Assembly: GCA_949130485.1 (NCBI GenBank)
Contig: OX422200.1
Location: 4,944,274 to 5,008,273 of the forward strand
DNA length: 64,000 nucleotides
Direction of reading: 5' to 3'
Source: Agelas oroides
Lineage: Eukaryota > Porifera > Demospongiae > Agelasida > Agelasidae
Positions 11,883-52,270 of this stretch are shown piece by piece; the first letter of the stretch is position 1; the number at the start of each line of letters is the position of its first letter. Made by a program: the position numbers and the translations under genes. Under the pieces are notes generated by a model, which worked only from the letters and a program-made list of their open reading frames with translations, did not search any database and had not been told where the DNA came from.

Positions 11883-12305
11883 TATATATATCACTGTAAA
11901 AACATTTGGGTTACTTCAACCATATTTTGGTCATCTCAGTTGCATGCCTGTTGTGTACGTGACACGTTACAAACTTCAAGGGATGCTTCCAATTTGCTTA
12001 AGTGTAGTTGAGACGCTTCTTGCAGAAAGCTATTTGGCTACATTCCTGGCATTTCTACCATAACCATGCAACCAAGGAACTCCTCCAGGGGCGGATGCGT
12101 AGGATCAAAGAAACACCAAACCTTACCAGAAATGCTGATTTATAGGCCTTCTGCAAGATGATCCTAATTTAACAAAAGGGAGAAGCTTCTCAACTACACT
12201 TTGATTCAAATTGTAAGCATCCCTTGATGAAGTTCATGTTTCACTTACACAACAGGCATGCAACTGAGATGACCAAAATATGGTTGAAGTAACCCAAATG
12301 TTTTT
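11883..12305. mobile_element. Foldback element with about 130-bp inverted arms, copy A only
   Basis: The left arm begins AAAAACATTTGGGTTACTTC near 11898, and the right arm ends with its complement at 12305. Arms stay similar for about 130 bases (both contain GCATGCCTGTTGTGTA). A 23-bp direct repeat, starting CTTTGTTACTGCACTAGCTA, flanks the insertion at 11860-11882 and 12306-12328. Copy B has that sequence only once, near 38873. It is therefore an insertion with an unusually long target duplication, or two rounds of rearrangement. Related sequence occurs near 54180-54310 and 62150-62280. Confidence 0.75.
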
Positions 12306-13366: not shown

Positions 13367-13372
13367 TTTATT
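13367..13372 (-). terminator. Poly(A) signal for ST2 copy A
   Basis: TTTATT on the plus strand is AATAAA on the minus strand, about 55 bases after the ST2 stop codon. The copy B gene has the same signal at 40101-40106. Confidence 0.5.
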
Positions 13373-13427
13373 CAAATAATAAATAATGATATGATTTAGA
13401 TTCTTCAACTACAGTTACTACATCACA

Positions 13428-17500: not shown

Positions 17501-18360
17501 GTAAATGAGAATGATCTTTCCATTCATGAACTTACATAGCTGTATACCTACTTGGATACACTAACAGAATACCTTTGAACAGCATTTAATCTGATACGGA
17601 TCTATTCCTCTACTTAACACTTCTGGATAGGGTAGCACAAACCTGTTGCTATAATTACAGTTGTTCCAAAATGAGAGCCTATTAAGTAATACTAAGGAGA
17701 TGCTGTATCATCCTTGGAGTGAGCCTGAGCAAGTAGCTGATTACATAAAAGATCCCATAGCCCATTAAGACCACTGTTTTATTATCACCATTGTTTTTGT
17801 CTGTTGTTGGATGTAGTCACAAGCAAAAATGACACAATGCCCTATTGCTGGTTGCACCAGCATGTAGACAAGGCCAGAGTCCAAATAAGTTTCCAAACTG
17901 CTGTTCCAACAAAGTAAGAGACATGGACTGACTGGGAGCTTCAATAGTTGATCTAGAATGAGAAGTAGATGCCAATCCAGACCAACTGACTAGCCAATAT
18001 GGTTTTGTAATGCATGGTAGTCTGGGATTTATGGTCAATAACCACCCTCATCTAAGGCCAAAGGTGCTTATTATAATCCCAAGCTATCTGGGTAAGTGTA
18101 AGGAGATTTTCTCTGACATTATATAGCTTATGTTCATAACCCCAAAGGGAAATGGTAAAACACAATACAAAAAAGGAAAAAAACAAACAAACAAACAAAC
18201 AAAACACAGACTATATGTTTGTGTCCATGGAGTTCAGTATGTCCTCAGTTGTGGTGACGTGGGTAGGTGCAGTCATCTCCAAAACATCTGTGGTATTGCT
18301 AACCACTGGATCTTCCTCACACACACAATCCAAGGTCATTTACAAAAGCACCCAGCCAAT
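14598..18360. other. Repeat-rich intergenic tail, copy A (first part)
   Basis: No supported gene. Most of it aligns with copy B (41334-48697), but copy B has extra insertions and a local duplication. The longest frames (for example 15263-15580 and 16734-17331) do not stay open in copy B. A C-rich, proline-coding-like patch at 16770-17110 may be a decayed gene or element. A relic at about 17718 (GAGCCTGAGCAAG) resembles an end of the composite element at 45083-47671. Confidence 0.55.
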
Positions 18361-18610
18361 ATCCACCACCATACTAACGAAAAGTGTTCCGGGTCTTCTT
18401 CCTCTCCAGAATTGCATAGTTTACACGTTGGATTACCAATGGGTCTACCGTCTCTCCTAACTCTGAACCTGACAGCATCACTCTCCAACCCATGGCAACC
18501 TAGGAGGAGCCCGGCCTCACCCTGAAGTTTGACCTGGTTGTGAGGTGAAGCAAATCAGCTGAATGGGTGATCTTCCAGTATTGGTTAGTCAGTAGGTATT
18601 TGGCACAGAT
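18361..18610 (-). pseudogene. LINE-like ORF C-terminal relic, copy A (inverted relative to copy B)
   Basis: On the minus strand this encodes remnants of LLTNQYWKITHSADLLHLTT, then CHGLES and a CxxC motif followed by EEEDPEHF. That resembles the cysteine-rich region at the C-terminus of LINE ORF2 proteins. It is the reverse complement of 49001-49245 in copy B, while the flanks are collinear. The minus-strand frame continues loosely into 18623-18844 (AAGRQKVDTWGGLLKDLEAL). LINE assignment is by motif resemblance only. Confidence 0.5.
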
Positions 18611-19076
18611 AACATTTCATGCCTAACAGTAGCTAAGCAGTGTTGATCTTGCTTTCCAAATGCTCCAGCCTCCAATCCTTGGATGGACATTAGAAGAAAG
18701 AGCCTCGAGATCCTTCAACAGACCCCCCCATGTGTCTACCTTCTGTCTACCTGCTGCAATCCATGTGGTCAGATCTTCCAGGCCTGCCCCTCTCTGTATT
18801 TGTGTACTGCATATGATGAAAGGCTTGCCTGGGAACATGTGCACTTACCTCACAAGAGTGGTTCTTGTTCGCAACAAAATTCCACTTCTCAAAGAATTCA
18901 AGTATGAACAGTAAGCAAGCAGCCAGCCTTTCTAGAAATGTGTGAACAACTTCACATCACAGCTAGTGCATGCACCTTTTCCATGCAGCTGCTACTTTGC
19001 CAATTCTTAACTCACACTTGGTGCAATTTTGTAACTTAGACTCAGTGTCCAGTAATTCAGCAAGCATCTTGCTTTC

Positions 19077-19182
19077 TGGGTCCCTGGTCCTTGGGTCCTA
19101 AGGTCCTTGGGTTTCCAGTCCTTGGGTCCCCAGTCCTTAGGTTCTTGGGTCCCTGGTCCTTGGTTCCTCAGTCCCTGGGTCC
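19077..19182. repeat. Degenerate minisatellite (CCTTGGGTCC-type), copy A
   Basis: About seven imperfect units of 12-16 bases built on GTCCTTGGGTCC and variants. The same array is at about 50042-50150 in copy B, almost unchanged. Confidence 0.8.
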
Positions 19183-19387
19183 AGTGTTTATGGTATCCCG
19201 ATTGTTACATGCTTCACACTAGCTTCTCCTATGGTGTAAGCTAATAATAACGAAATCATGTGACTTCGAATTACAGTTCAGAGGATTGGTGTTACTCACT
19301 GTAGGCGACAGTAAGTACTCATGTATAATGATATTGTTCCAAGAGAGTGAGAAATATATTTCAATCAATAAAAATATTTCTGGAATC

Positions 19388-19466
19388 CAGCTGGAATTTG
19401 AACCCAAGACCTTCTGCACGCTAGTCAGATGCTGTTAGCTACTACTGAGCCACTCAGACCAGAAGA
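19388..19466 (-). repeat. tRNA-like SINE head, copy A
   Basis: On the minus strand, TGGCTCAGTAGTAGC resembles a tRNA A box, and GGGTTCAAATTCC about 50 bases later resembles a B box. The spacing fits a tRNA-derived SINE promoter. A weaker second copy in the same orientation is at about 19700-19772 (GTGGCTTAGTAGTGAAAG then GGTTTCAAATTT). The element lies in the duplicated tail and is also present at 50358-50436. A functional tRNA is unlikely because the arms do not pair well. Confidence 0.55.
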
Positions 19467-20017
19467 CAAGCTATATAAGACAGCATTGCCTAGAGTCTTC
19501 AGCCCAATTCCTACTGAGTCACTCTCTCAAAGCTGGAGTATGCTGATTGGCTGAAATAAGCAAGCAGTTGTGACACACTTTGATGGCCTGGTAGTAGCCG
19601 TAACCATGGCTGCTGGTGAACCTTTGGACGGTTGATATTTCCAGATATTAGGCACTCATAATGAAGTGGTTTCGAGAAAGTGAGAATTGAATCCACTTAA
19701 AAACATCCAACTTAAATTTGAAACCAAAATCTTTTGAATACCAGTCAGCTACTTTCACTACTAAGCCACTTGGGCAGCTGATGGTAAAAGATGGAAAGGA
19801 AGTGGTTTTGTTTACCAAGGAGGTTGAAGTCCATGTTATTGAGGACCAGATTAGCAGTTGCTGGTGGATAGTTATTATATGATGCTGTGACTGACTTGCT
19901 GTTTACAGATGTGTCTTTGCTGCTTGGACTGCATAAGGTTAGTAACACTGTGCACTACCCTTGAGACTTTGAGAAGGTAATCTTGTGAATCACTCCTGTG
20001 GAGGAGATGGCTCCCCT

Positions 20018-20019
20018 GC
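20018..20019. other. Junction of the tandem duplication (copy A end / copy B start)
   Basis: Copies A and B align up to GATGGCTCCCCTG, ending at 20018 in A and 51007 in B, then diverge completely. The sequence after 20018 leads within 350 bases into the RTK ectodomain exons, so the duplication breakpoint lies in or just upstream of the 5' part of the RTK gene. Confidence 0.85.
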
Positions 20020-20368
20020 CCACAGGCAAGCGTGCTTCATTGTGCTTCATTGTTACAGTTCAATGTAAGAACATTTTTATTGGTAAGTGATTGCACACAG
20101 GCAAGCATATACATCATGTGTGCTCACACTCACCTAGTATTGTGCAAGTATAGTTACAAACTTTGGCTTGTAGTCACATTGACTGTACCAATACTTCATT
20201 ATGTTAAGTATTGTTTAGTGATGCTATGATTAGGTTCATACATTTTTAGGAAAGTTACTAGTCTGTGAAGTACTGATTTCTCAGGAGAATGCTTCTGTCA
20301 GCTAGGTAATATAGATGCTGCTTCTCTATTTTATTTGTTGTTCTCCTTTCCATTACATCTATACACAG

Positions 20369-23300
20369 CATCTACTTGTGCACGTAGCTATTCAGAAAGC
20401 GATGGTGAAGTGAGGTTGTGCACAACTTTGGCTTCTACCTTCATTGGTTCAGAAGTTGCTGTCAGTTCGGTTGACACTTCAGCTACTGGTAAGTAGAGCA
20501 TGCTGCTGGTACCAAATGTAAGTGTAACTCGACTCCAATTTGTAATCTAGGTCATTTCTTGGCTTACTTTGCTCATACTGTATGCACATGTTGACATCAA
20601 ATGTTCCCTTAGCTGTTTTGGTTAACACTACAGTTGAACACACTTTCTGCTATTATTCTTTGTATTGCCTTCAGCTGGGGAAGATTATTTGCTGCTTGAT
20701 AGAGAAGTCAAGTCACAAATAGATACAAACCGGGGTGGGATGTCAGTCTGTACACAACTGCAAATCATCAATGATGAACAGCCAGAGCCTTCAGAGTATT
20801 TCAGTGTTGAGTTCAGAGCGCTATCTTCAGGGATACTTGCGGCATCTTGCACAGTGGAAATCATAGATGGTACAATTCATGTGTTTGTATTTGTCCATTA
20901 CTGTATCTGGTTCACAGTAGCTGTAGAACATCTCTTATTGAGGCATAATAGCCAGAGGGTAACAATGCATCACCTAGGCAATATATAAGAATGTTGCTCA
21001 TATCTGTCTTCTACAGTGGTGTTTCCTAGGTAGTGGTTGTACCGTCATTATTTTAATAGAAAATTAAATAATTTCAAATCTGGTTTTTACTAGATTAGTG
21101 AAAACTTCTTCCGCTAGATTAGCTCCCTCGTTGTAATGGAAACACATTTTCCTTCTGCCCCTCACCATGCATGGAAAGGTAGGGATAATCACACTACATA
21201 CCCCAGTATAGAACTTTCACTCATATGCAGTACAGGTGTGAGAAGACCTGTAAAGGTGTACAGATTAGTTTCATGGTATCACTCTGAATCAATCAGTTTC
21301 AGGTTCCCCATTCTTAAAGTGCCAAGAGAGCCAGTTCATGCATGGTGGAGGAAGGTGGTGTTGCACAGGTGTGCTTTGTACTCAAGAATGCAAAGAGACT
21401 ATCTAGCCAGGTTACCATCACTGCTAATGTCTTTCCACAAAATGCAGGCACAGCAAATGGTGAGTAAAATAGATCTTACCGTGTATGACCATGCCTTACG
21501 ATTATTTTTCTCTCTCCTTCCAGCCAGTATAGACTATAATGTGTTTAGCACAGTGGTTGAGTTTCACCCTGGTGTAGCCGAAATTGCTTGTGTGAATGTA
21601 AGTATCCTGCAAGATGAAGCACTGGAAAGAGTGGAATACTTCTATGTGGCTGCAGTACCTAATGGAATGGTTGGTACTCCTGTTGGTGGTGACTCGTGTG
21701 AAGTGGCTATCATTGATGTCAATGGTATGCTTATTTCTAACAGACTGTAGCCCAATTTGTGTAGTAGGAAATATGTACATAAATATTGGTACAAATCATG
21801 AATATGGACTTTAGCTGGATTTAAGCCCAAGTGAGGGTTAACCAAGGGAGGAGAATGACTCAGCTTTAGCTACTTTTACACTTCTGCTTTTTCTACGAGT
21901 AAGCAGAGACTCATAATGTGTAGGAACCGGGGAGAGGGGCGAACATTTCAGCTGTGCACCACACTCATGTTGCATGTGGAATATGTGTGGTACTAACTAC
22001 CCAGCTTAGTTGATGAACATGGGCCTCTGCCATTCCAGGAAACAATGCTTACCTTGGATGTAACACCACACTCATTTGTTGACACCATCCACAAACCACC
22101 ATTGTTTTCATGGTATATTCAATCATGTGTTCAATAGAGTGACTTACTGCCCGCTGGCTATGACATGTACACACAGTTATGTGGAATCGTTGATTAATAG
22201 CACTAGATCTATTTCCATGTGAATGTGTAACCTTGCTTGCTAAAAAGCAAGTGACCTCTATGAATCCAATTAAAACTTTTAATGAGGGTTAATGTCCAAC
22301 TTCTGCATGTGCCAAGTTATGTGGAGTCTGTCATCAGTGAAAGTGCAGCCAATTATGCCAGACTGTAACTACAAGTATGACTGAAGGAAAGGTATCCTGA
22401 AACCAATACAGCCTCAGAAGTGATACCCCTGAGCTTCTTATGGATGCAATTTTCCTGTGGAAGGGTGCATGCCTCTGGGCCTCCCCAGCATCAGCATGCT
22501 TACACATGTACCCCGGGCTACAGCAGCCCTGCCCCCCCCCCGTCCCTAAATAAATAAATAATAAATCTTTCTACACTTATGAGAATTTTAGAAGAGGTTG
22601 GAAGCTAGTATTTTGTAGTATAGTTCATGAATTGAATAATGTAATCATTCAGACTGTGATAATGCGCTTCTTTACTTCATTTGAATCCCACGCTTGTTGC
22701 CTGGTGTGTCATAAATTGAAAGCAATAGTTAATTGTTCACAAAGCATTTGAATGGTTTACTTGCATCAAATTTTCAGATCATCAAAAGTGCTATCTGTTA
22801 CACAACAGTACGCAATGAGTTTGTTTTGCCTACAACAAACAAGGGTATTGCAAGTATAGATTGCATGATCGACTACCTGTTGATTGGGCTGTGGTCAAGC
22901 AGCCACCTTGAACTACAAATGTGCTACCTCTTTATGCAATTATGTACCACTAGCATGTAATTAGTAAGGTGTATTCAAAAGAGTGATGTGTGTGCAATGT
23001 GTAGTGTCTGTCAGCTGTGTGTATCGAAGATGGAGTTCTTGCCTTATATAGCACTACTTGGAAATTAAATTGCTAAGGGCACCATGACACACATCAATAT
23101 GTTCATATTATTGTTTAACACTCATTCAGGTCCACACGTGGAGTGTCCCAACCAACCCAACGGCACTACCATTGATTACTATGTGGAACCAGGTGTCGAA
23201 AGACAGTTTTTGCAAAATCCTTATGGGGATGAGTAAGTACAAAACATAGAGAGCAAATTCACTGTGTCTTGCCTATTACGTTCTCTGAACAAACAGCTTA

Positions 23301-25522
23301 CTTCATGAATTCGAAATTGTTGTTGGTTTTAATTAGGAGTATATGTTTAATATACAGATTTGTACTAAGCCAACGTGAGCATGAACCTCTTTTTCACCAT
23401 GAGAAATTACACTACTTAGTAGGTGCCTAGAGGCTAATTAGTCTATGTACATTGAGTGCCAACTTGGGTGAAAGTTCCATGCAGTGTGACAAGCATGTTG
23501 AATTAAAATTAATGAAAGTAAATGTGCACATTTCCTATTCAAAGCAGAATTTGACCACCGTCTTCTTCTTGCTGTCTCCTCAGTTTCTGCTTTGATCCAG
23601 CAAATGATCTCTACATTCCAGAAGAGTTATGTGCTGGGGTGTTCGTCAGTGACTGTACACAATGGAATTCAGGCAGCTTTCGTGAAACTCTGCAGAGCCA
23701 GTCTTTTAGCAACTATGTTCCACTTCTTGCTGAGGCCAAAACAAACAGTACCTGCTTGGTACAAGTGACTTCACAAGTGATGCAACTTTATGATAGTGGA
23801 GGAATAAGAGTTGCTGACGTTCGTGATCACTGCATAACTAATTGTGTGATGTCTGTAGTTTGTAATGACTGTCATGGTGTAGTGTACTTGCTGGAAGGGG
23901 TGTACTTGCAATCAGTGGCTGAAGTCAGTGCTAATTTCCCACTGGACAGCAATAACTGTTATATGAACCTGGCCTGCTGTGAAACAAAAGTTCCAATGGA
24001 TTGTACAGTTGGAGGTTAGTTTTGATATACTCAAGAGTATTGTGACTGGGAGGTACCTCACAGACCATGCTATAGATATACAGCATTGGCTGCAGTTGTA
24101 TGTTAAAAGCAAGGCAATGCATATTGGTTTTAAGTATGTATATACAATGTGAGGTCTAGGAGGAATAGCATAATGTATGTAATCATGGTGCATTCTGTTT
24201 ACTAGCTAACATTTTCTGCTGTACAGTATCTGATCATGATCACAGTAATGTGAAATCTGTTTCTCTATCTGTTGTGTCAGCCACAAGGTCTGCAGCGACC
24301 GTTTCTCCCTTTAACTCATCCAGTGAAGACAGTGGAGACCTTTCAATAACAGCTAGTGCATCAGTAGGTGTGACTATAGGTGCAACACTTGGTGGGGCGT
24401 TGATTGTGACCCTGGTTATCTTGGGTTTGGTGGTTCTACTATGCTACTGTAGCACTAAGCGAAGAAGAAGCTGCAAATCCCAGTAAGCAGAACTTGATCA
24501 GTTAGTGGGCTAGAATCCACCTATAAATTGGTATGTGCTTATAAATTGGTATGCATTAGTAATTCAAAGTTGTAACAGGGTGCTGCTTATAATGTCTGTC
24601 AATTTTTAAAGGCTAAAAGCTTGTGTTAATTTGTGGTGGAGAGTATAGGACCCCCAACAAATGTCATGCTCCTGAATACCTTGTTTTTTCAAACAGAACA
24701 GTAGATGGGGAACAAGAACAGTATGAAGAGGTCACACTGCATATAGGTAAGCTACCATTATGTATCACAATATTCAAGTCTCAGCTACTGCATGTAATGT
24801 ACAGTGATTTACAAGATGTCATGTACATAGTTTAAGTTGACAGGGAAGTATGAACAAAATGTTTCACCTCCTCTTGCAGCAAAATCTGATCAGTATGGAA
24901 AATGGAAAGAGGTGTTTGCTGGAAAAACAATTGATTCATCACATCTGGACCTGGGTGATTCTCTTGGAGAAGGTATACCTACATGTAGTTTTCTGACTAC
25001 AAAAGCATATTCTGTGATGATCTGCTGCTTTATCTAGGTACGTTTGGAAAGGTGTATAAGGGGAAGCTAAAGTTTGACCTTACGTTATCGAGACAAGTTG
25101 CTGTTAGAACACTGAAAAGTGAGTTAATCCAACAATACATATGTAAACTTAGCATTAGAAGTTGGTCTCAAACAACTACTTCTTTGACATTATGAGGGTG
25201 CATACAACATCATGTGCATTTGATCATGACAACAAGATTTGTAAGAAAGTGAGAAATGATGAAGTATATCCACTTTGTTACCATATTTAAATTGCAATGT
25301 AATGCTTCCACAGAGGTTTCATCACACGAAGAAATCGAGGAGTTTGTCACTAAGTCTGCACTGACACTGAACTTTGACCACCCCAATGTGCTGGGACTAC
25401 TAGGCATCTGCTTTGCTCAGGATATTGTCCCTTTGATTGTGTTGCCATATATGGAAAATGGAGATCTTCAATCATTTCTCAGGTCAACTGATAAGCCATC
25501 AACAAGTGAAGCTTTTCCAGAG
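20369..25522 (+). CDS. RTK-like gene, copy B: Calx-beta ectodomain, TM and kinase N-lobe exons
   Basis: Eleven exons join with matching phases: 20369-20488, 20675-20869, 21331-21459, 21524-21724, 23130-23232, 23584-24014, 24227-24482, 24697-24746, 24880-24972, 25038-25118 and 25314-25522, about 622 residues. Exons 1-2 form one Calx-beta fold (SATAGEDYLLL, then IINDEQPEPSEYFSV) and exons 3-4 a second (MVEEGGVAQVC, then VSILQDEALERVEYFYV). A cysteine-rich region of unknown type follows. Exon 7 encodes a Ser/Thr-rich stalk, a membrane helix (GGALIVTLVILGLVVLL) and a basic stop-transfer CSTKRRR. The N-lobe has a normal glycine loop (GEGTFGKVYKG), but the VAIK lysine is Arg (VAVRTLK, codon 25106-25108) and the C-helix Glu is Lys (25352-25354). 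No signal peptide is seen, so 5' exons may have been lost at the duplication junction at 20018. Calx-beta domains typically mediate adhesion or calcium binding. Confidence 0.85.
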
Positions 25523-26986
25523 GTACATTTTATTGTGTCTTACTACTTCAGCTGCTAGCCTAACTTAGACAACAAGCTGATCTAAGCAGATGGTAATAAA
25601 TTAAAGGTAGTGTGCTGGTTTACAGAATAATAGGCAGCAGAGAGCCAGTATGAAGGGAAGCAACAGAATCCTGTTGAAATATGATGACAAGAATGCATTG
25701 GGCAATTTGTGTGTGCACTGAGAGCTGAGTAACATGCATGCTAAGACAGTAACCATAATCTCCTTATTATATGCCCACCTAATGCTTTCCTTTTGAAAGT
25801 ATGCCCATGCAGTAGTCTATATGCAGTTATGTTGAGTAAAATTTCCGGTTTCTTGGGATTCTCAACCATGTGGGCGTGTGTTTACTTCTTATTATACATG
25901 ATGAATATCATTAAACACCTTGAGTGGCGATCATTCTATTGTTTGGCTGTTCTTCAATAAATGGTGCTAGTTATTTGCCATAGGAATGTAGTACATCCGT
26001 ATATGTGGTTACCTGGCATAACATCTCAAACTCTCACTGATTCTTGCAGCTCGAATAGTTGGCGATCGAACCCCCACACACCAGTGTATATGCCTATTTT
26101 TCTCTGCAGATAGTATGTTGAGGGGCTTTGGCATCTTCTTTCTTGTCGATCATAACTGGAGATAAGTACTGAAAAACGTAGACATTACCTCTGAATCACA
26201 CCCCAAGTGGAAAGAAAAAAGTATATAGTATAGTATAGTATAGTAGCCTCGTTCCCAGGCTCTCCCCTCGCCCCGACGAAAAATAAAAACGTTTTTTATT
26301 TTTCATCGGGGCGAGGGGAGAGCCTGGGAACGAGGCTAATAGTATAGTATAGTAATGTTGAGAAAAGCCACAAAAGTGCATGTGTATGCCCAATGTTTTA
26401 TCCTGTCTTTCCAAGCCTGAGACGAGTTATTGAAGTTTGACACCACAGCTGGATAAATTTATCATTGAAGTATCTTCAGTTAAAGCACTAAGCCTGAGAG
26501 GTAATCCACAGTGGAGACCACGCACACTTCATTCTGACTTGCAGCTCTGGAGCCTGGTATAAAACTATGGTAGGTACATTCTTAACAAGCTAGATCTATT
26601 AGCTACAACTTTCTGGTAGCAGACCACCGATACACCACAACCACACTGAGCTACAAGTCATGATCACTTGGACACTTCAGTGAAGTGCACACTTAGCTAC
26701 TGGCTTGCTGCACTACAGCACATCCCATGCCTCCACAGCGCTTTTGATGGCAACAGTGCTTCTTTACAACACTGAGCCCCTCAATAGGCTTTGTGCAGTG
26801 TTTTTAGCTCCTACACAACTCAGATATAGATGCATACAATAATAGCATGGCCATCTTCTTCCCAGCAAGTTGGCTGCCTTTGTATCATCTCGCCTCTACA
26901 TGGCTTCAATTACCACCAATTAGCACCCATCATAGGTCATAGACATCCAGTGTTCATGCAATAGCAAGTAAGCTTCACTTCACTCG
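25523..26986. other. First part of the 8.1-kb RTK intron, copy B
   Basis: No exon was found between the exon ending at 25522 and the Ty3 fossil. The region contains the palindromic element at 26244-26339 set in a TATAG microsatellite, and a relic near 25757-25815 resembling the TA-flanked MITE of 353-759. A stretch at 26892-26935 (CTCTACATGGCTTCAATTA) recurs at 47414-47455. Confidence 0.6.
26244..26339. mobile_element. 96-bp near-perfect palindromic element (TAGCCTCGTTCC family)
   Basis: Arms of about 45 bases pair almost completely: TAGCCTCGTTCCCAGGCTCT on the left and its complement ending at 26339, with an A/T-rich centre. It sits inside a TATAG repeat that continues on both sides, consistent with insertion into that repeat. 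The same terminal sequence bounds 63178-63569 and appears as a single end near 59806-59836. Confidence 0.8.
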
Positions 26987-27302
26987 TGCTCGCACAACAA
27001 TGCTTGGGCATGAGGCAGATCACATGATACACGCATTACATAATATTACATAATCACAAAGATAAGAACATTACACCTCTTCCTTCCTCGGAAATTAAAA
27101 CAGATAAATAATCAAACACATACACACACAAACAAAAAATAGTTCATGAAATGTTCAACAACTAGTTCATATCATTCGGTTAATGACACTCACTGTTCAT
27201 AAACATTCTGTCCATATCATCTGGTTGGTCTCCGGTCGCGTCTGGGATATCGGTGTGGATCAGGTGACTCATTTCGTGGAACAGTTTCAGCATTATCCTC
27301 AG

Positions 27303-27898
27303 CAGTGGCGTAGCTACACCCGGGCCCATACGGGCCCAGGCCCTGGTGAATTTCTGAGTGCCCTGGTAAATCATGTGAGGTCAACTTACCTGAACCGCAA
27401 CAGCATTGCTGTATATAGAATTATGTCATGTAGCTGCCAATGCCGCTTAGGCCAGGCAAATTAGATTTGTTGTTTCGCATCAGCCACTTGCTTGATTTGC
27501 GTGCGGGCGGGCAGTTATTCATTATTTGTTACTATCAAACGCTATACACGCTTCGGCAAATCCACCACGCTACGGCCATTAAAAGTGGGCGTGTCATTGC
27601 CGGGAAGGCGATAATGACAGTTGAGGCGGCAGGTCTCGAAGGAAGCGGGCGCTGATGCGAAACAATAAATCCAGTTTGCCTGGCCTTATCTACGATTTTC
27701 GCTTACCTTCTTTACCCGTCAACTTCAGCAGCAAATATAAGCACCGAGTGCGAGCTACGCTGTCTCAGAAGGCCACCTCAGAGCACCTAAAATTTGAAAA
27801 TAATTTTCTGGGGGGCATGCCCCCAGACCCCCCTACAGTGTGGTGGCCTTACGCCCACCAAGTGCCCAGGTAATTGCTGAACTCTGGCTACGCCACTG
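27303..27898. mobile_element. hAT-type MITE inserted in gypsy-2
   Basis: The ends are CAGTGGCGTAGC and its complement (GCTACGCCACTG). A perfect 8-bp target duplication, ATCCTCAG, lies at 27295-27302 and 27899-27906, as expected for hAT elements. It contains the GGGGGGCATGCCCCCAGACC module shared with 3759-4264 and others. There is no transposase. Confidence 0.88.
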
Positions 27899-28006
27899 AT
27901 CCTCAGGCAATATGTCCGTGTCATCAGCATCTTCGGAATCATCAGATTGCGGACTAGGGTATGGAGAATTAATCTTCTTGAAATAGGAGACATTACGAGA
28001 AATATA

Positions 28007-28545
28007 CTGTATAGTTGGTAATTTTCGTGGGTACAAATGTTCGCGAAACAGGCCAAAATTCGGGTTTTAGAAATTTTCACGGTTTTAATTTTCGCGGTCG
28101 GTGAATCTGGGACCCGCGGGTTAGCTAGCGGTACAGCTAAAAGCGGAGCGAATGTTTAGAATTGTTTACAGAGAGAGATGGCAATGTCAGCTGTTTGTTC
28201 CAGTGTGGCGAGAAAAGTAGCTTCATACCCAGGATGTTCGTAGAAATGATTGCTTCCGCTCCCGGCCTCCCGGCCTTGCTCCGCCGTCCAGTTCGTGTGT
28301 CTGTGCCTACGTAGCACTTCGATTTCCTGGATGGCTTGAGCGATAACCGTCAAAGGAACACTCTATGACAGGCTTTTGTTGGAGTTAGAACCGCTAGATA
28401 GTTTGAAGTATAGGCCGGATTGAAATGTGGTTCGCTCGCTCTGCACGTGGCCAACATGAATTTCGCGGTTTTAATTTTCGCGAATGGCTCCTGACTCGCG
28501 AAAAACGCGAAAATAAATCCCTCGCGAATATTACCAACTATACGG
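28007..28545. mobile_element. TA-flanked MITE inserted in gypsy-2
   Basis: The left end CTGTATAGTTGGTAAT and the right end ATTACCAACTATACGG are inverted repeats with TA on each side (28005-28006, 28546-28547). The interior is rich in TTTTCGCG/CGCGAAAA motifs. It interrupts the 3' part of the Ty3 fossil, so it inserted later. Confidence 0.85.
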
Positions 28546-31500
28546 TACTTTCCGTTTCGGGATGCCGTTATCATTGTTCCCTTACGTCTTACCACAATAA
28601 ACGGGAATGGATCAAACTTAGTTGACCACTTGTTTTGCTTTCTTTGACGGATCAACACTGTGTCTCCAACTCGAATATTAGAGACTGTTGCTCTGGATCT
28701 CTTATCTGCATATTTCTTCATTCTCTCCTTGGCTCTTTCATCATTCTTTTGGACAGTCCGATCAATGTCAGAATTTCTCTTCATCGAGATCTGGGGAAGT
28801 TTCGTCTTGATCTTGCGATTGAACAACAGTTCAGATGGAGCAAAACCAGTTGTACTGTGAGGGGTAGCTCGATAGTTTAACAAAAATTGATAGAGATCCT
28901 TTCGCCAATCTCTACCGTCAGCATGTGCTGCTCGGATCGCTTTAGTGACTGGCTTCATGAAGTTCTCTGCTTTGGAATTCGCCTGGGGCCATAGAGAAGT
29001 AATTCGTGAGTGCTTTATTCCTTTCTCCTCCATGTACATCTTGATTTCTTCACTTGCGAACGGTGGACCGTTGTCGCTTTTCGCAACTCTCGGAATTCCA
29101 TGTGTGGCAAAGATTCGATCCATCTTTGGTATCGTTGAGCGGGCTGCTGTGGAGTGTACAATTTCAACTTCAGGATATCGAGAATACAAACAAATATTCT
29201 CCTGTCGGGAATGGACCACAAAAGTCCATGTGGACAGTGTGCCATGGTTCTGGAGGTAGGGGAGACATCTGAAGAGGGTCTGGATGATTTTCAGGACCAC
29301 TTGCTTGACACAAGACACACTGATTTATCATCTCCTTCACGTCATGATCAATTCTTGGGAACCATATTTTCTCACGCAACAACTTCTTGGTCTTTACGAG
29401 GCCTTGATGACCTTCGTGGGCTATGGATATGGCTCTCTGACGAAGTGAGTTTGGCATCACTATGCGATTACCACGGAGAATGACATCTGCATCTTGGCTC
29501 ACCGTCAATTCGTCTCTGATTCTGCCAAATAACTGCAACCCTGTTAGATCGACTCCTTCAGCATTTGTTTCCCACTGCATGGATTGTATTGATCATCTCT
29601 ATGAGATGTTGTAATGTTTTGTCATATTTGGTTGCTTGTTGAATCTCTGATAGAGACATGGCTTTGGGTACAGCATGGGTGATGAGGAAGTTGACGTAAT
29701 CCTCTGTCATTTTCTCATGTGTCTCAACTTCATTCCGATTGGCATGTCGAGAGAGGAAATCAGAGGGGTTTTGAATACCTTTTGTGTGTATTACTGAGAA
29801 ATCGTACCCTTGAAGTCGTAGATTCCACCGTTCAATACGTGCTGGTGGTTTCGACTTTGCATTGTCAAAGATCAACTGAACTGCGCGGCAATCTGTGAAG
29901 AGGGTGAAGTGTCCGCCGTACAGGTATATGTGTAGCCTTTCTATGGCCCAGACTATCGCCAAGGCTTCTCTTTCAGTTTGTGAGTACCGGCATTCAACTG
30001 GAGACAGCGATCTGCTTGCATATGCAACAACTCTTCGATCCTCTTATCCGGGAGTTTTCTGAGTTAGGATCGCTGATAGACCCCAAAGTGATGCATCAGT
30101 GACCAATTCCGTTTCCTTGGTTTGGTCGAAGTAAGCCACAACTGTGTCACTGGTCAGCAATTGCTTAATTCTTTTGAAAGACATCTCGTGCTCCTCTGTC
30201 CACTGAAATGGAGTGTCTTCTCTCGTTAGCTCGCGAAGGGGCTGAGAGACATCACTAAATTTCGGAATAAACTTAGCACAATATGTTGCCATTCCCAGAA
30301 ACTTCTGACACCACTGGTGGAGGTTGGTGGACTGGCATTGTGGATTGCTTGGACCTTCTTTGGGTCGGGAGAGATTCCTTCAGCTGAAAACACAAATCCG
30401 AAGAATGTTAGTGAGTGCTTATTGAACTCACACTTTGACTTGTTCAGCATCAGGCTGACATCTGAAAGCTTCTGGAACACTGCTTGCAGGGCTTTGTCAT
30501 GGGCATCTTGGGTTTTTGCGAACACGATGACATCATCGCTGATGTTCAATATTCCTTGAATATCACGAATTTGCTCATTGATGGTGTTCTGAAATATCTC
30601 ACTTGCCGAATTGGTGCCAAAATTCAGTCTGGTGTACCTTCTCAGGCCTTTGTGGGTGGCGAATGTGGTTATGTATCTGCTCTCTGGTGCCAGGGACAAT
30701 TGGTGATATCCTGAGCATAAGTCCAGTTTCGAGAATACCGTGGCTCCATTGAGGGTGTGAATCAGGTCATCGACTGTAGGACTCGGGTGTCGTTCTCGAT
30801 TGATTGCCTTATTTGCCATTCTCATATCGACACAAACTCGAACATCTCTGTTCTTCTTGGGGATTATGACCAGGGGAGATATCCATGGGGTAGGTCCATC
30901 TACTTTCTCAATTATCCCTTGTCTTTCTAGACTGTCGAGTTCAGCTGCTACGCACTTTCTCATGTGAAAGGGGATACGACGAGCAGGTTGAGCAACCAGA
31001 GAGATGGTCCGGTCTATGTGCAGTTTGACTTCGACATTCTTCAGCTTTCCAATTCCTTTGAACAGATTCGGGTATTGCTGAACTAGTTGCTTATAGGCTA
31101 GTGGAGTGTGATCAACCTGCTTGATCCTGACATCAATCACGCGGAGGTCAGACGCTGTTTTGTAGCTGAGGAGTGATCCATGGTTACCTTGTAGGACATG
31201 GATGGTTGAAGTAGTGCAGTTGTTTTCGAACTCTACGGCTACATCGAACTTTCCGAGAACTGTGAGCTGTGACTGGGAACCGTAGGCAAAGATGCGTTTC
31301 GTGGGTGGTTGTAGTTCGATGGTTTGGCACTGGTTGATTTTGGTGAATGAGTCTTCATCCAGGATGTCAGTCAAAGCACCAGTATCTACAATCATTTCGA
31401 TGGGGACACCGTTTACTTCGACGTTCACCAGGGGTGTTTTCGAATTCGTCATTGAGTCTTGATCCAGTGTGTACAAGTATTCATCATCGCTGCGGGGACT

Positions 31501-33171
31501 TGATTGATCTTGAGAGATCTGACGAACTGATGATTTGGCAGTTGGATGTGGCTGATGAGCTCGTGTCTGTCTAGGGTTTTGTCTCTTGTTCTGGGGAGTA
31601 AAACAGACTTTAGCAAAATGATTTGGCTTGCCACACTTTCGGCGCGTCCGGCCTTTGGTTGGGCAAAGTCCATCCTTATGAGGCCAGGCAGAACCACAGT
31701 TGCGACACTTGTTTGGGCTGTATGTTTTCGGACGGGGCTTCGGTTTTGGAGGAGTTCGTCCTTGATCTTGATGAAGCCGGTTAACATTTTCAGGGAGAAG
31801 TGACTTTTCGATACCACTGGCTTGTGTTTCACTTGCTTCTAGAGCTCTGGCTTTTGTCAACAGTCCATCCAACGTGAGGGCTTCTTCTCGAAGGGCAAAC
31901 CTTCGCAGACATTTTGAGTGGCAGTTCTGGATGATGGCTGACTTCAACTCTCTCTCCAGGTTGGAAAATTCACAGTGAGCTGCTAGTTTTCTCAATCGAG
32001 TAGCAAACTGGTCGACTGTTTCACTGACTTTCTGAACAGCCTGTCGGAATTGAAAAACTTCATAATCTACATTCTTCTTCGGTGAGAAGTATCCATCCAG
32101 CTTTGTCATCGCCGTTGCAAAGTCCTCTCCAGTCTCCGGGAGTGTGTCAAAGATTTCTTATGTGGCTTGTCCAGCCTGGTAGAGTAATAGGGCTCTCTTC
32201 TACTTATCCTCTGTTATATTCAGAGCGACCAAGTACGTCTCGAACCGACGTTTCCACGACTTCCAACGCTGGCTTATTGAACTAGGCTCTGTTAGTGGAT
32301 CGAACGGAGGAAGCGGTGTCAAATCGATTTTTGTTGCCATAATTGCAAAATACGGGTCTCCTTTTATCCTCGTCGCCAGTTATAAAGTTCATAGGTGCCA
32401 TTGAGAGGCTAGATTCACTTGGATAGCGACGACCGTGCTCGCACAACAATGCTTGGGCATGAGGCAGATCACCGCATTACATAATCACAAAGGTAAGAAC
32501 ATTACACATGCAATGGGTCTTATTGTTAGAAGCTGGATTGTGCACCTAACTCCGATTTCCTGTTCCCTGTTCCACTTTTGCCCTAATCTAGCCAGGCTTC
32601 CACACTATGTGTAGCTAGTGGGTTAGCTTAATGACATATTTATGGAGGAGAAGTTGATTTGTCCACCTGCATTCAAGCCACCTGCATTGAAGTCACCGTT
32701 TTCTTTTCACTTGGGGTGCGGTTAGGCTCGAAATAATATATACACAGATATATATATATATATGTATATAACTGCAAACAAAAACTAGATGCAGACAAGT
32801 CTGAGAAACCTAATTACCATGGCCTAAACACAAAGTATTGAAGAAGCAGTACTGTAAAAGAGGTGGGACTAACAATCGAAGACAGTCACCATTTGCTGCT
32901 ATTATCCAAGCAGGCACATAACAAGAGAGGTATTGCACAATCACTACATACATCTATAGGGTTACACTAATTATGACTAAGGTGAGTATATATTCTGGAC
33001 GAATATCATAACTCTCAAAAATACTCCCACTTCCCCTCTTTGAGGATCTACTTACGTTAATCACCCACTGGTGTATTTTTGGGAGATTACTGTACTTTGT
33101 CACAGAACACTTCAACCTGACCTGTTCTGTGTGTAGTGATGACGTAGCATAATGTTTGGCATTACCACATA

Positions 33172-33579
33172 CCGTAATCTCTCGAAAATATGCCCATGGG
33201 TGATGAACTTAAGTGGCTCCTCAAAGAGGGGGGGCGGGTGTAATTTTGAGAATTGACATTTTTCTCTCAAAAAATCACCCACCTCACATGTAGTTAGTCT
33301 AGCCTTATTTATGTACGCATGCAGTGATTCTGCAATGCCTCTTTTGTCATACACTTCCTTATGCAATAGCAGCAAATGTTGTCTGTCTTCATTTGTGAGT
33401 TCCTCCTCTCACACAGTACTGCTGGTTCTTCAGTGCTTCTTGCTTAACATAACTGCATGTATTGTAGGCATAAGTAGGTGGGCGCACTTTTGAGAGAAAA
33501 GCGCTCTTTGCAACAACTTCACTCAAAAAAGGGGGGTGGGCTTATTTTTGAGGGTGGGCCTATTTTCAAGAGATTACGG
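33172..33579. mobile_element. TA-flanked MITE in RTK intron, copy B
   Basis: Duplicate of 353-759, with the same inverted ends and TA flanks and only a few base differences. It immediately precedes the exon at 33633. Confidence 0.75.
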
Positions 33580-33632
33580 TATATGGGCTTATTTACTCAT
33601 TTAATTTGTGTATGTGTCCTCTGTGTATATAG

Positions 33633-36335
33633 GGGATCTCTGAACCATTGTTGGTAGGGATGTGCTTGGATGTTGCAATGGGCATGCAGTATTTGGCTGC
33701 ACACAACTTTGTTCACAGAAACCTTGCGGCAAGGAACTGCATGTATGTTTATTCAACCCTGCATTCATGCCACTAAAAATTTAGTTGTGCCTCAAGGTAT
33801 AGACTCTGGAACCCGGTGCTCGTAGGCTCCTCCCAGTTTTTTCCACCTACTGTCTGAACCTGGGATATTTTCTTATTTCTGTCACATTGCATCCATTACC
33901 TTCTGTTACAGTGTATAGCAGCTATTTATTACCGTATATAGCAAGCACCGTTTACTAAGCCATGTACCAGCCCTATAATCAAATGTGCAGCTACATAGTA
34001 TTTTAACTTCTTCAGGGTTGACTTCCAGTTTTGAGTGAGGGTTGCAGACTTTGGCCTACCATGGGATGTGTGTAACACTGACTATTACTGTTACACACAA
34101 AATGTGAGGCTGCCTGTACAGTGGATGTCTCTGGAAAGTCTCTATTATAATATCTTCAATGAGAAGACAGATGTGGTAAGTATGTGATATGCCTGTCTGT
34201 AGGAACTAGGAAGCTTTAGCTCAGCACTTACTTCATAATTTCGTATGCACATGCATATGATCCCTTGCCCCCTCATCTTGTGGTGCCTCTATTCACTAAT
34301 TACATTATTATGTTCATCTCAGTGAGTAAACTTAAGGGCTCAAAACCAGAGTGGTCTAACCACATCATCCACTGGTAGCTAGCTTAGCATTACAGAACAG
34401 ATATCATACATAACAGAGAAAACATCTGGCTAAGAAAAGATTTATGATAGGTTCTTAATTCAGCACATACTTTCATACCAGTATATGTAATAATGATAGG
34501 CTTCATAACTGGAAATGCCATGCTTAAAGCTATATAGGAGCCTCTATGGGCTCACAACTGGGCACATATCATACTGGTAGTATTGTAAGGCTGTGGGTAT
34601 CATAAATGGTATCATACCTGGAATGTCAGGCTGAAAGCTTATAGAAGATAATTCGTTATGTGGGCTCATGTTTAGGTGGTGGTGTATCACATGTTGGTGG
34701 GTATCCAGGTCCGTAGCCCCCCTTTTGGCCTCAAAAGATTTTATTCACCGCCCAGCTATAATTTTAAATTCCCATACCGTTTGTAAGTGGTCCATTGAGA
34801 ATCACCACTGTCCAACAAGTTTGGTTGCAGCTATGCACCCCGTTTGTTCATGGAGGACCAGCGGATGAATGCGGACTATGTGCGTAAGCGGTTTGCGCAG
34901 CTGCGATGTAAGGACGCGTGTAAATACGTGCATAAGTAAATCACTATTTCAGGTGCTCTAGAGTTCACCAGTTGTCCTGAACAGCCTGGAGTCATACATT
35001 CTTTCTGAAAATGCATGGTATATTATGGTAGTCCATAAGCATCTTGCTGTCCTATAAGCGTGAAGTTCTCCTGACATATTCTCTGCATACTATTTCAGCA
35101 TCTGTCGCCCCACCTGCTGTTTGGCCAACCGTAGTATTTCTTTCGTAGAAACTCAGGTGTCAGCTGGCTTATCAAATGCATATATGGACAGTCAAAAATT
35201 GGAGTCAATACTCTGCAAGCCATGTAGCTACTACAGCGTCCCAAAATGGCCTCAGAAGCAATCTCAGAGCATATAATTTCTAAACATTTCCTGGGTGAGC
35301 ATGCCCCCACACCTCCCTAGTCTTGCATGCATGCATACATACTCACCAGACACCCATGTAACCCCATTTATTATATGGGGTCCCAGTCTGGGTAGTATTG
35401 AGGGTTCTTTGACTCAACATGTTACAGCAGATTTTTGAGAGATTTTTAATGTGCTAGATATGATACAGTAAGAGAGACACTCAAATAGACCACTCTGGTT
35501 CCAAGCTTTTCATTAATTTATGCATATACACATGTGAAATAAGACTGTCTTGCTTATCTCTTAAAGTGGTCATTTGGTGTTGTCTGCTGGGAGATCTTCA
35601 GTCTTGGTGATGAACCCTACTCTGGGGTGGAAAATACAGATATTCCAAACTATATCAGCAATGGACACAGACTGAAGAAGCCCACGTTGTGTCATGATGA
35701 TCTGTAAGTGCTTCATGCTGCTGGTACACAGAAACCACAAACTGCTCCAAGCCTGTCATATACAACTATTGTAAAATAGCTTGGTACAATGGACGGTGAT
35801 TTAGCTAGGTGAAATCATTTCATCCCATACTGCAGGTACAAATCTATACTCTTCACCTGGCAATACCACCCAGGAGATCGCCCAACTTTTGACCAATTGG
35901 TGAAAGTTCTTGAATCCCATTACCAGCAAGACATGAACACTGAGCATGAGTACTTTGTGCTGGAGGAACCAGCAACAGCAGAACCCGACTATGCTAATGC
36001 AAAAGCCTATGATTCTGGTGATGCCATAAACAATGATGAACATGTATACATGGATCTTGAGTTTGAGAGTACTCAAGATAAGCCGAAATACATGAATGCT
36101 TCCATAATTGCTCAGAGCTCACCAATAGAAGCAAGTGAAGATGCTGAGAATGTGGAACCACTTGAATATGAAGTCCCTGTTCCTAACACTATCCCAAATA
36201 GCCCTCACCAGTTGGCAGAACAAGATTCTACATCAACCAACATTCTCTCAGTCTGCAACAGCCAATTACATGCCTTCAAACTCAGATGAACGTCTCTATT
36301 ATAATGTTGTTGAGCATCCTAAAGTAATGGTCTAG
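33633..36335 (+). pseudogene. RTK-like gene, copy B: kinase C-lobe and tail exons with stop and frameshift
   Basis: The exons correspond to copy A: 33633-33742, 34016-34175, 35567-35703 and 35836-36335. The catalytic loop again reads HRNLAARN (Asn codon 33720-33722). In the second exon the Arg codon CGA of copy A is TGA (34032-34034), which would stop the protein just before the DFG segment. In the last exon a 2-base deletion near 36250 shifts the frame, so the tail ends at 36289 as [11 protein letters not shown], without the last YYNVV tyrosines. Exon borders are otherwise intact. Copy B therefore cannot make a complete receptor. A protein with ectodomain, membrane segment and a partial kinase remains possible. 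A sequence error or polymorphism at 34032 cannot be excluded. Confidence 0.85.
34332..35512. mobile_element. Non-autonomous TIR element in RTK intron, copy B
   Basis: Duplicate of 1514-2694, bounded by the same CAGAGTGGTCTA / TAGACCACTCTG inverted ends. Small indels separate the copies, and no coding was seen. Confidence 0.6.
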
Positions 36336-36920
36336 GAGAATGTTTGTTGGCCATGAATACTTTATATAGTGCATCTTATAAATATTTTTTATACTGTATC
36401 TTGTAGCTACAAACAAGATGCAAAGAGGAGTATTTTGTGTACTGTACTTGTATAATATTCAAAGTACTAGGTGCAGAAGACACCTCTAAGCTTAATCATG
36501 ACATTATAACCACTCCTGATGATTAATAGTAGTCTCATGATCATTTCATAAGCAGCTCATGTCTAGTTGTGCATGCAGTGTACTGTGTGTCCTTGCAGAC
36601 TACAATGTTTGTACCATTGACCTCTCCACCACTTTTCTGCATTGCTGCTTAATTAGACTATGGTTGACTAGCAGCAACAGCTATCACTCCCCACCTAGCA
36701 ACACTGCATCTTCACCAATCATGTTTTACATATTTGCAAACCAGTGCTATTGCCAAGGATGTGTACTACAGAGTATATACTAATGCTGTTATTGGGGGAG
36801 CTCCTAGCCGGCTATGATCTTTTGGCGAGAGTCGGCAGGCTTCCTCCCTGATACAGCCTGAGGAGGGGAGAGGAGGGAGGAGTTGCTCCACACTAGCATA
36901 CTGGAGGATGAGGGGCAAGA

Positions 36921-36972
36921 GGGGAGGAGGAGGAGGAGGAGGAGGAGGAGGAGGAGGAGGAGGAGGAGGAGG
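36921..36972. repeat. (GGA)n microsatellite, copy B only
   Basis: About seventeen uninterrupted AGG units. They lie in a 200-bp stretch (36790-36985) that has no counterpart in copy A. Confidence 0.9.
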
Positions 36973-37371
36973 CTACCTCATCTGTATTGTCACCCCTTTA
37001 TGACTGTTCATGCTTATCTTTAAAGCATTACTGATCCAATATGAGCCACTTCCCAAACTATTAGGAATCTTTGAACCTCTTAACTCAGCGGTTCAGTTTA
37101 TCCCTATAGCTATGCTGCAGTACCTCTCAGCCAGACTGTTGTTTTGTCAAAAAGTATAGGGCATGCAAGAAGCACATACAAATTGAAAATTAATGTGAAG
37201 TAAAAGGAAAACTGCAGCAAGCATTAAGAAGGATATACTACATGTACTATATTCCACCTTAGCAACATAGCTATGCATTATCAAGAGAGAAAAGTTATTT
37301 TGCAAATAGTAAGCAAATGCATGATGGAAAATCACAGATCATGCTTGCAATGCTAAAGTCCAAATGTACTT

Positions 37372-38724
37372 TTAGAAATCGCTGTCAAAAGAATACCTGT
37401 CAAAAAATCTATGGAGTTTAACTCTTCTTTCAACATCTGAAAGTAGCTCTTTGCTCCAATAAACCAAGTTTCTTGTTATCGATACTTTATCAAAAGCCTT
37501 CTCCTCGCACATTTGAAGATAATCTTCAGGACAATCTATTTCCAAAAACTGACATATTTTAAGCATAGTTCCACGTGGCTTTTTGACAAAGTCAACATTA
37601 TGGATTTCCAATACATTCAGTTTCAGTGTCTCTGTCATGCTTTCTACAGCATTAACTTCTCGGAACACATTAATTGCACCAATCTGGAGTAATCGAGTAT
37701 TATTATACTTGTTAGTTTCAGTAGCAGTTTTAAGCCTCCTGCCAGCCCTATCTGTCACCTTATAAAGAAGATGGGTTGCAATCATGTCGTAAGGGTTCCT
37801 GACCACATGTATTGCTCGAATTGGTATCCTTATTGACTCCTTTACATGGTAAAAGCCCTCTTTAAATTGGTCTGGGAATCTGTAGTATGCCCATGATGTA
37901 AGTGCTGCATCTTTGTCACCAATAACTTGCAATTGCTTGTATCTTCCCTGCCATGGCGAATCTGTGTGCAGGGTGTACCCTTTCACATTATTTTTAGCTG
38001 TCCTCCAGCCAGACGTAGCTTGGTACCAACTGTCTTTATACAGCTCATTAAATAAAAATTCTTTATCCTGTAATTTGAAATTTTTTGACATATTTCCCTT
38101 CACCCATTCACCAAAAACATTGTATTGATGTGCTATAACTATGTTTGGGTGAGCATCCATCAGGCTGGCTATAATGCTGTGACCACTTCTGGGATAGCCA
38201 ATGAAGAACACAAACTTTTCTACATCCTCTACTGTCTGCTTGGAAAGAGGAATGAAGGGATGGGTTGACAATTCATCAGTTTCCGTCGCTACCAATGCTT
38301 TGCTTGTTTTCAGGGTTCTACTTGCACTCAGATACTTTGTGGATGATTTAGATGCCTTTATCTCCATTCTCACAGTTGGCCTTGTCTCTGACTCTTCATC
38401 AACATTTTCATTGTGGTCGTGAATGACAGATGGGGAGTTCCTAACTTTGCGGTTTGTCAATTCCTTAGTATGTGGAACATTGAGATCAAAATCTGGTACA
38501 TCATCAACATTTTCATGAACTTTATTGCGGACAGCTTGGGGGTTTCTAACATTGCGGTTTGACAATTCTTTAGCATGTGGAACATTGAGATCAACATCTG
38601 ATGATCTTATCTCACCTTCAATTTCATGGCTATTCGCCACTTGAATTCGAGTAACTCTGAGATGAAGAAATGCAACAGATATCAGAGCTAGTAGAGAAAG
38701 ACCAGTAGCTAGCTTATCACGCAT
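37372..38724 (-). CDS. Sulfotransferase-like type II membrane protein (ST1), copy B
   Basis: An intact intronless frame of 450 residues. The N-terminus MRDKLATGLSLLALISVAFL is a signal anchor after two charged residues, so the enzyme is probably Golgi-lumenal. A stem of about 140 residues contains two copies of a 35-residue unit, seen as VPHAKELSNRNVRN (48-61) and VPHTKELTNRKVRN (83-96). The catalytic domain begins near 168. FIGYPRSGHSIIASLMDAHP (174-193) is the 5'-phosphosulfate loop, and RAIHVVRNPYDMIATHLLYK (303-322) is the 3'-phosphate motif with conserved Arg and a helix. The C-terminus has the usual LNVLEIHNVDFV and LKICQFLEI segments. The family transfers sulfate from PAPS; the acceptor is unknown. 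It lies on the opposite strand to the RTK, 1.0 kb beyond that gene's end, and ST2 follows upstream in the same orientation. The copy A version is disrupted. Confidence 0.9.
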   Translation of the reverse strand: MRDKLATGLSLLALISVAFLHLRVTRIQVANSHEIEGEIRSSDVDLNVPHAKELSNRNVRNPQAVRNKVHENVDDVPDFDLNVPHTKELTNRKVRNSPSVIHDHNENVDEESETRPTVRMEIKASKSSTKYLSASRTLKTSKALVATETDELSTHPFIPLSKQTVEDVEKFVFFIGYPRSGHSIIASLMDAHPNIVIAHQYNVFGEWVKGNMSKNFKLQDKEFLFNELYKDSWYQATSGWRTAKNNVKGYTLHTDSPWQGRYKQLQVIGDKDAALTSWAYYRFPDQFKEGFYHVKESIRIPIRAIHVVRNPYDMIATHLLYKVTDRAGRRLKTATETNKYNNTRLLQIGAINVFREVNAVESMTETLKLNVLEIHNVDFVKKPRGTMLKICQFLEIDCPEDYLQMCEEKAFDKVSITRNLVYWSKELLSDVERRVKLHRFFDRYSFDSDF

Positions 38725-40169
38725 TTTGTATTATTTCTCAGCAATGCTACTCTTGCAGTAGCAACACAAGTACTGGATAGCAGTTATAGCATGCACTAAC
38801 AAACCACTATGTAACATTCCTCAGTTTCCCCGTGCAGGATATGTCCACATGAGGGACATACACTACACATTCTTTGTTACTGCACTGGCTACTAGGTATG
38901 AATACATAAATATGGAATGCAAACAAATGTGTATGCATAGTCTGAGAAACAGAATAGTAGTACAGTAATGCGTGATTAGGTTTTCCACATTCCTGCTGCT
39001 ATAAGTAGCTTCCAGGCAGGTACCAACAAATATGATGCAAGTATTTGTAGTTTACCATAGGTCAGTACATGGTAATAATGTGTGCTGGAGGTACCAATCA
39101 TATTGTGCCAGTTTATAGTAGAATGTATCAGAACCTCGATGTAATTGCCAAGCTCCCTATAGTGAGGCAGTGTAGTGAAATCACAGCCCACAACATACTT
39201 TAATTGCATGATGCACTGTGACCCAGTGGATGGTTAGACATGCAGTACCTGTGGGGTCAACACTCTAGATTTGCCAAGAACAACATGATTGGGAATGAGG
39301 CACTACACAATGTGCTGGAATAAACTTTGATGGTTAGAAGATTAAACACTGAGAAGTCACTTGGTACTTATAAACATTTGGTCCTTATGTGTGCAGCAGA
39401 GGCCATACATTAGTGAAGGATTGAGAGCAGAGAAGGGAGAGAGAGCCCAGGAGAGAGGAGGTTGGGAAGTGGAGAGAAGTAGAGAAAGGGCAGTATACAC
39501 CAACAACACACGTATAGCTAATCATCTCTTATGGCGGGCAAGAACCTATGTAGTCAGACATGTCATTGGGTTTACCATCAGGACATGTGTGGGAGGGTGG
39601 AAAGGGGAGAGAGGGAGAAGTATACTTGTATAGCAGCACTTGTATCACACCGTATTGCTACCCTTTTCTTGGTATAAAATCTGATGATTATTATTATTGC
39701 TATTCCAGTCAGGACAACAAAAGCAGTTGTTGGATGCTCTGGAATTTCAAGATCTGAGACGGAGTGTTGAGCACACATTTGTGTGAAGTTGCAATGGTCA
39801 CTTTTGTACCTGCATTCTTAGGAAATTTTATAACCCTGGTATATGGTAGAACTAACGTTCAAAAAGCTCCTACAAGTCTCATAATATGTATACAGACATT
39901 TAGACTTGACTGGACCACCAGCTTACAGAGACAGCCTTTGACATGAAGTTCTGGGAGGTGATGAATGAGCTAGGTCCTAATCATTCATGCTCAGAATCTG
40001 GATCACACAAAATGTGTATTATGTAATGTGTTGTAGCTAAAGACATATTATGCTCTCAGCTATATGAATGGGTTAATAATTCAACAGCTAGTGCCGATTG
40101 TTTATTCAAATATAATGATATGATATAGATTCTTCAACTACAGCATTTAATACATCACACAAAGTAATA
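38725..40169. other. Intergenic region between ST1 and ST2, copy B
   Basis: Corresponds to 11713-13427 without the foldback insertion; the undisturbed target is near 38873-38896. It has the same purine-rich patch at 39430-39630. No gene was seen. Confidence 0.6.
40101..40106 (-). terminator. Poly(A) signal for ST2 copy B
   Basis: AATAAA on the minus strand, about 64 bases past the ST2 stop codon, in a position conserved with copy A. Confidence 0.5.
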
Positions 40170-52265: not shown

Positions 52266-52270
52266 TGAGT

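Follow-up and report, generated by a model that had tools for sequence, protein, structure and literature searches.

The DNA analysed here, a stretch of 64,000 nucleotides from Agelas oroides (the window), contains two related receptor sequences, one seen over 15 exons (copy A) and one represented by its 3' part at the left edge (copy B). In the reading that we favour, at a probability of about 0.55, they belong to a tandem-duplicated receptor lineage with a HER3-like degenerate kinase, in which copy A is a decaying pseudogene and copy B is the candidate pseudokinase. Support for this reading comes from a TGA in copy A facing a CGA in copy B in a CpG context, a 2-nt deletion, a weak exon-3 acceptor, the lack of a 5' initiating exon and a Gly to Asp change in copy A. 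It comes also from the loss of catalytic invariants with structural motifs intact, a C-lobe dN/dS of 0.21 and the tail tyrosines, and from the precedents of HER3 and FLOR-1. Against it, the TGA and the deletion could be errors of base calling or assembly or belong to one allele, the in-frame acceptor at 34040 could bypass the TGA, and the sharing of HRN may be due to gene conversion.

Receptor architecture and catalytic residues of copy A

Copy A consists of 15 exons on the + strand (20369-36335) that join in phase into a single receptor, exon 3 only via a poor acceptor. The order of domains is two Calx-beta units, a Cys-rich region, a membrane helix, a juxtamembrane segment with the glycine loop, a tyrosine kinase and a tyrosine-rich tail. 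The two Calx-beta units proposed in the sequence-only reading were both recovered above the Pfam cutoff in the joined exons (PF03160; 34.0 and 44.1 bits, cutoff 27). E1 (20369-20488) and E2 (20675-20869) encode the two halves of the first unit, and E3 (21331-21459, its start uncertain owing to the poor acceptor) and E4 (21524-21724) those of the second, which is weakly similar to the Calx-beta domain of NCX1 in a PDB sequence comparison. The membrane-proximal exons E5 (23130-23232, Cys-containing) and E6 (23584-24014, Cys-rich, no assigned fold) matched no Pfam family above its cutoff and no sequence in the PDB; a single-sequence fold prediction of E6 was uninformative (pLDDT 33) and was left unused. 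No other Pfam domain than Calx-beta, and specifically no Receptor L or furin-like domain of the kind that marks the ErbB/HER family, was found in the visible ectodomain, from which the 5' exons are missing. The proposed membrane helix is likewise borne out by E7 (24227-24482), which carries a strongly hydrophobic segment of 21 residues, LGGALIVTLVILGLVVLLCYC (mean hydropathy 2.67), followed by a KRRR stop-transfer signal. E8 (24697-24746) and E9 (24844-24972) run from the juxtamembrane segment through the glycine loop (24697-24972). PK_Tyr_Ser-Thr (PF07714; cutoff 23.1) spans both the N-lobe (68.5 bits) and the C-lobe (190.4 bits). The tyrosine kinase fold with LAARN and WM.LES, together with ectodomains and a single helix N-terminal to the kinase, places the gene by descent in the receptor tyrosine kinase superfamily.

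Using the MERTK alignment as the reference for the catalytic columns, we found the three substitutions that had been claimed, each at the right column. In E10 (25038-25118), which encodes GTFGKV, the VAVK of MERTK is VAVR (VAIK Lys to Arg; codon AGA, 25106-25108). In E11 (25314-25522), which encodes the C-helix, FLSEAA is FVTKSA (Glu to Lys; codon AAG, 25352-25354), and in the catalytic loop of E12 (33633-33742) HRDLAARN is HRNLAARN (Asp to Asn; codon AAC, 33720-33722). The glycine loop and the DFG motif are kept in copy A, as had been stated, and so are HR, the catalytic Asn, WM.LES, DVWSFG and RPTF. With the loss of at least one of the VAIK Lys, the HRD Asp and the DFG Asp as the definition of a pseudokinase, copy A qualifies through Lys and Asp and copy B through Asp. 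Duplicate exons restoring Lys, Glu or Asp, whose use in transcripts the sequence-only reading had named as a finding that would speak against it, were looked for within the window by a read-through Pfam scan with positive controls, and none was found, the 8.1-kb intron between E11 and E12 (25530-33630) included. All three lost invariants are catalytic, with the structural motifs that we checked intact. Random decay accounts for this pattern less well than a pseudokinase ancestor does, and the pattern agrees with selection for the fold, but not for catalysis, before copy A broke. As a separate observation by eye, the same intron contains Ty3/gypsy-type remnants antisense to the receptor (28350-32290, - strand), with reverse transcriptase-like and integrase-like frames.

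Lesions in copy A

Read from the acceptor at 34016, E13 (34016-34175) encodes NCMVDFQF-stop-VRVADFG, with an in-frame TGA at 34032-34034, the DFG of VRVADFGL at 34047-34055 and then the activation loop; copy B has CGA at the corresponding position (1213-1215). We took the acceptor at 34016 as ancestral because the length from NCM to DFG is the same in EGFR and MERTK PDB alignments as here. The difference between TGA and CGA corresponds to a CpG to TpG change, and the surrounding sequence is CpG-depleted (observed/expected 0.39). A second lesion lies in E15 (35836-36335, RPTF and the tyrosine-rich tail), where copy A is 2 nt shorter than copy B at 36250 and the resulting frameshift replaces the distal tail, including YMPS and YYNV. 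In E14 (35567-35703, DVWSFG through HDDL), a conserved Gly has become Asp in copy A only (LGDEPY vs LGGEPY in copy B). Moreover, the in-phase acceptor of E3 is 33% pyrimidine, compared with 47-100% at the other junctions, and use of the stronger site at 21303 would break the frame.

The 5' end of copy A is also incomplete. E1 begins with a phase-1 acceptor and hence is not the first exon, so that the gene requires additional 5' exons. However, no exon with a start codon or a signal peptide was found upstream of E1, the stretch from the duplication border at 20018 to E1 showed no candidate first exon ending in a consensus-like phase-1 donor, and a read-through Pfam scan of 3500-20400, whose positive controls detected single kinase exons, gave no upstream receptor exons. 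A complete open reading frame with a signal peptide is therefore lacking in copy A, given the TGA at 34032, the frameshift at 36250 and the initiating exon not found. The earlier claim of phase-consistent exons holds insofar as the 15 exons do join in phase, but it has to be qualified by the poor E3 acceptor, the TGA in E13 and the frameshifted tail. From these features we infer that copy A has become a pseudogene, still early in its decay.

Copy A might instead encode a working pseudokinase receptor, the TGA and the 2-nt deletion being sequencing or assembly errors or confined to one allele. The rest of its kinase domain is well conserved and has full-length Pfam matches, and there are just two clear lesions over about 300 codons. 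However, the same 302 codons are lesion-free in copy B, the TGA is a typical CpG transition, and the conserved Gly to Asp change, the doubtful exon-3 junction and the lack of a 5' end all point the other way, which makes a working copy A unlikely in our view.

It could also be that copy A is expressed in a form truncated after the catalytic loop, or altered by a different exon start, and that its ectodomain has a decoy or dominant-negative role. The exons for the ectodomain and the helix are open, and among five possible acceptors near the start of E13, only that at 34040 (60% pyrimidine) is both in frame and open. Its use would skip the TGA but delete the eight codons of VDFQF-stop-VR, and with them the strand lying between the catalytic loop and DFG. 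The tail frameshift would remain, no 5' exon was found, and decay of the mRNA would be expected, since premature stops usually cause mRNA decay. Of the explanations considered here we hold this one to be the least probable, and pseudogene decay remains our preferred account of copy A.

Tandem duplication and the open copy B

Window positions 1-3633 match 32820-36463 (the 3' parts of copy B and copy A, respectively), and a further block X matches between about 4.3-20.0 kb (X1) and about 36.6-51.0 kb (X2), with 83-97% identity and large indels. The order along the window is the tail of copy B, X1, copy A, X2, and on this arrangement the locus is a tandem duplication of the receptor plus X. The right border of X1 (20018-20019, matching 51007) lies about 350 bp 5' of E1 and is the probable start of the second repeat unit; copy A may have been truncated at its 5' end when it was formed. 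Copies A and B could also be two haplotypes that the assembler placed in tandem by mistake. A read-through Pfam scan with positive controls showed no receptor or kinase domain of a further copy at 51000-60900, and searches of contigs from prokaryote genomes and from viruses turned up no contaminating relatives.

Several other features were noted in these regions. Block X contains sulfotransferase-domain genes, with an open 452-aa frame in X2 (37372-38730, - strand), a second X2 match at about 40289-40997 (- strand) and an X1 match at about 13598-14243 (- strand); in X1, the region that corresponds to the 452-aa frame (about 10725-12788) has no Pfam match and may be broken. Immediately 3' of the receptor gene lies a GGA/GAG-type simple repeat (36912-36980, + strand) whose three + frames read as poly-Gly, poly-Arg and poly-Glu. 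A marginal Rfam tRNA match (54818-54889, - strand; 33.4 bits, cutoff 29), inside the repeat 54795-54953 / 56038-56189, is possibly a tRNA-derived SINE.

The divergence between the copies is uneven. Over 32820-34819 (+ strand), copy A differs from copy B at 9 of 1998 sites (0.45%), and this tract, which includes the exons with HRN and DFG, is likely a conversion tract; divergence is about 2.9% over 34820-36419, and the aligned segments of block X differ by 3-17%. E12, which carries HRN, is identical in the two copies, and its tract shows about one sixth of the divergence of the 3' exons next to it. As a side observation, the step near 34820 (0.45% to about 3%) suggests the boundary of a gene conversion tract or a haplotype switch. 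Exons appear more diverged than introns (2.9% vs 1.1%), mainly because the 3' segment, where divergence is higher, holds most of the exonic sequence. The HRN tract was thus likely homogenised recently, by recent gene conversion or through mixed haplotypes, and HRN in both copies cannot by itself date HRN. Its presence in both copies, as previously stated, was confirmed (33720-33722 in copy A, 899-901 in copy B), but the further claim that it predates the duplication is weakened by a tract only 0.45% diverged.

Copy B contributes an open C-lobe and tail of 302 aa (812-3512, + strand), encoded by B12 (812-921), B13 (1197-1356), B14 (2743-2879) and B15 (3011-3512). HRN and DFG are retained, the tail is intact and there is no lesion across the 302 codons. 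Its second activation-loop Tyr is Ser (DYSC vs DYYC in copy A), a change compatible with autophosphorylation being dispensable. The N-lobe and ectodomain of copy B lie beyond the window edge. Over the 301 shared codons we counted about 15.5 nonsynonymous and 10.5 synonymous differences (dN/dS 0.37), and in the C-lobe 5 nonsynonymous and 6 synonymous differences (dN/dS about 0.21, p = 0.014), values that average both lineages and rest on few changes. The C-lobe ratio points to purifying selection for the kinase fold in one of the lineages or both.

A catalytically active family would be another way to explain these data: the substitutions would reflect the decay of copy A, and HRN in copy B would have come from A by gene conversion or would mean that B is decaying too. 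The counterparts of E10 and E11 in copy B are outside the window, so that only the broken copy A shows the changes Lys to Arg and Glu to Lys; the exon with HRN falls within the homogenised tract, and all three changes are single-base transitions if the ancestral codons were AAA, GAG and GAC. However, random decay is not expected to strike three catalytic invariants and yet spare structural ones, and copy B is open, with a low C-lobe dN/dS between the copies. We consider an active family improbable, and about as much so as a working copy A. The degenerate lineage that we prefer leaves copy B as the only candidate in view for the proposed pseudokinase receptor function. The sequence-only reading of a signalling pseudokinase receptor finds no support in copy A, with its interruptions ahead of DFG and in the tail, but may apply to copy B, which is open where visible.

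Proposed mechanism and comparison with known receptors

According to the model we propose, the parental receptor, with at least two Calx-beta domains, would already have been a HER3-type pseudokinase before copy A broke, and copy B would be the functional member of the pair. By analogy with HER3 and FLOR-1, the partner of an intact copy in a dimer would be an active receptor kinase, which would phosphorylate tyrosines of the YxN-rich tail, and the tail would then act as a scaffold. The tail tyrosines include YANA, YMNA and YYNV; the Grb2 SH2 domain binds YxN-type tyrosines, and those of the receptor are likely SH2-docking sites. Through its Calx-beta domains, the ectodomain would depend on a ligand or on calcium, the binding of which is putative.

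A stronger proposal is that copy B, or else an intact parental gene beyond the window edge, encodes a functional pseudokinase receptor of a non-bilaterian animal that combines Calx-beta domains with an Arg/Lys/Asn kinase and signals only via an active partner, which would imply an independent early-animal origin of HER3-like receptors. This is a tentative suggestion, which we think somewhat unlikely. If an intact copy is expressed, the locus would provide a Calx-beta receptor with a HER3-like inactive kinase, and with it evidence that pseudokinase co-receptors evolved independently outside bilaterians. If none is expressed, it would illustrate clearly how a tandem duplicate with altered catalytic residues can pass for a functional pseudokinase when one CpG-derived stop is overlooked.

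The pairing of Calx-beta with a tyrosine kinase, described earlier as unusual, is supported by Pfam, and we found no description of Calx-beta with a degenerate receptor kinase in the open-access literature on sponges and close relatives, nor in the PDB. Catalytic degeneracy of receptor kinases, by itself, has precedents. Among solved structures, the best-scoring full-domain relatives are the kinases of MERTK/AXL and MET (about 235 and 221 bits), and by per-domain score the kinase here resembles those of MERTK and MET more than that of EGFR. MERTK/AXL and MET are active kinases that carry Lys, Glu and Asp, the residues replaced in copy A. The ectodomains are Ig/FN3 in MERTK/AXL and Sema/PSI/IPT in MET, and none of these domains was found in the visible ectodomain here.

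HER3/ErbB3 has HRN and has lost the C-helix Glu, and it keeps the glycine loop, the catalytic Asn and DFG (PMC13259870, Table 2), as does copy A. However, HER3 retains the VAIK Lys, which is Arg in copy A, and its ectodomain is built of leucine-rich and Cys-rich domains instead of Calx-beta. The C-terminal tail of HER3 is phosphorylated by an active partner, and the same may apply, by analogy, to the intact copy here. FLOR-1 of C. elegans is likewise an invertebrate receptor pseudokinase from a lineage-specific family (KIN-16); it works with the active receptor kinase OLD-1 and is thought to be phosphorylated downstream of its active partner (PMC10523662). FLOR-1 retains Lys and Glu and has lost the glycine loop and both the catalytic Asp and the catalytic Asn, whereas copy A shows the opposite for Asn, the glycine loop, Lys and Glu. 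Finally, EphB6 has lost the VAIK Lys, the C-helix Glu and the HRD Asp (PMC13259870), as copy A has; in addition it lacks the catalytic Asn and DFG, both kept in copy A, and it carries an Eph ectodomain.
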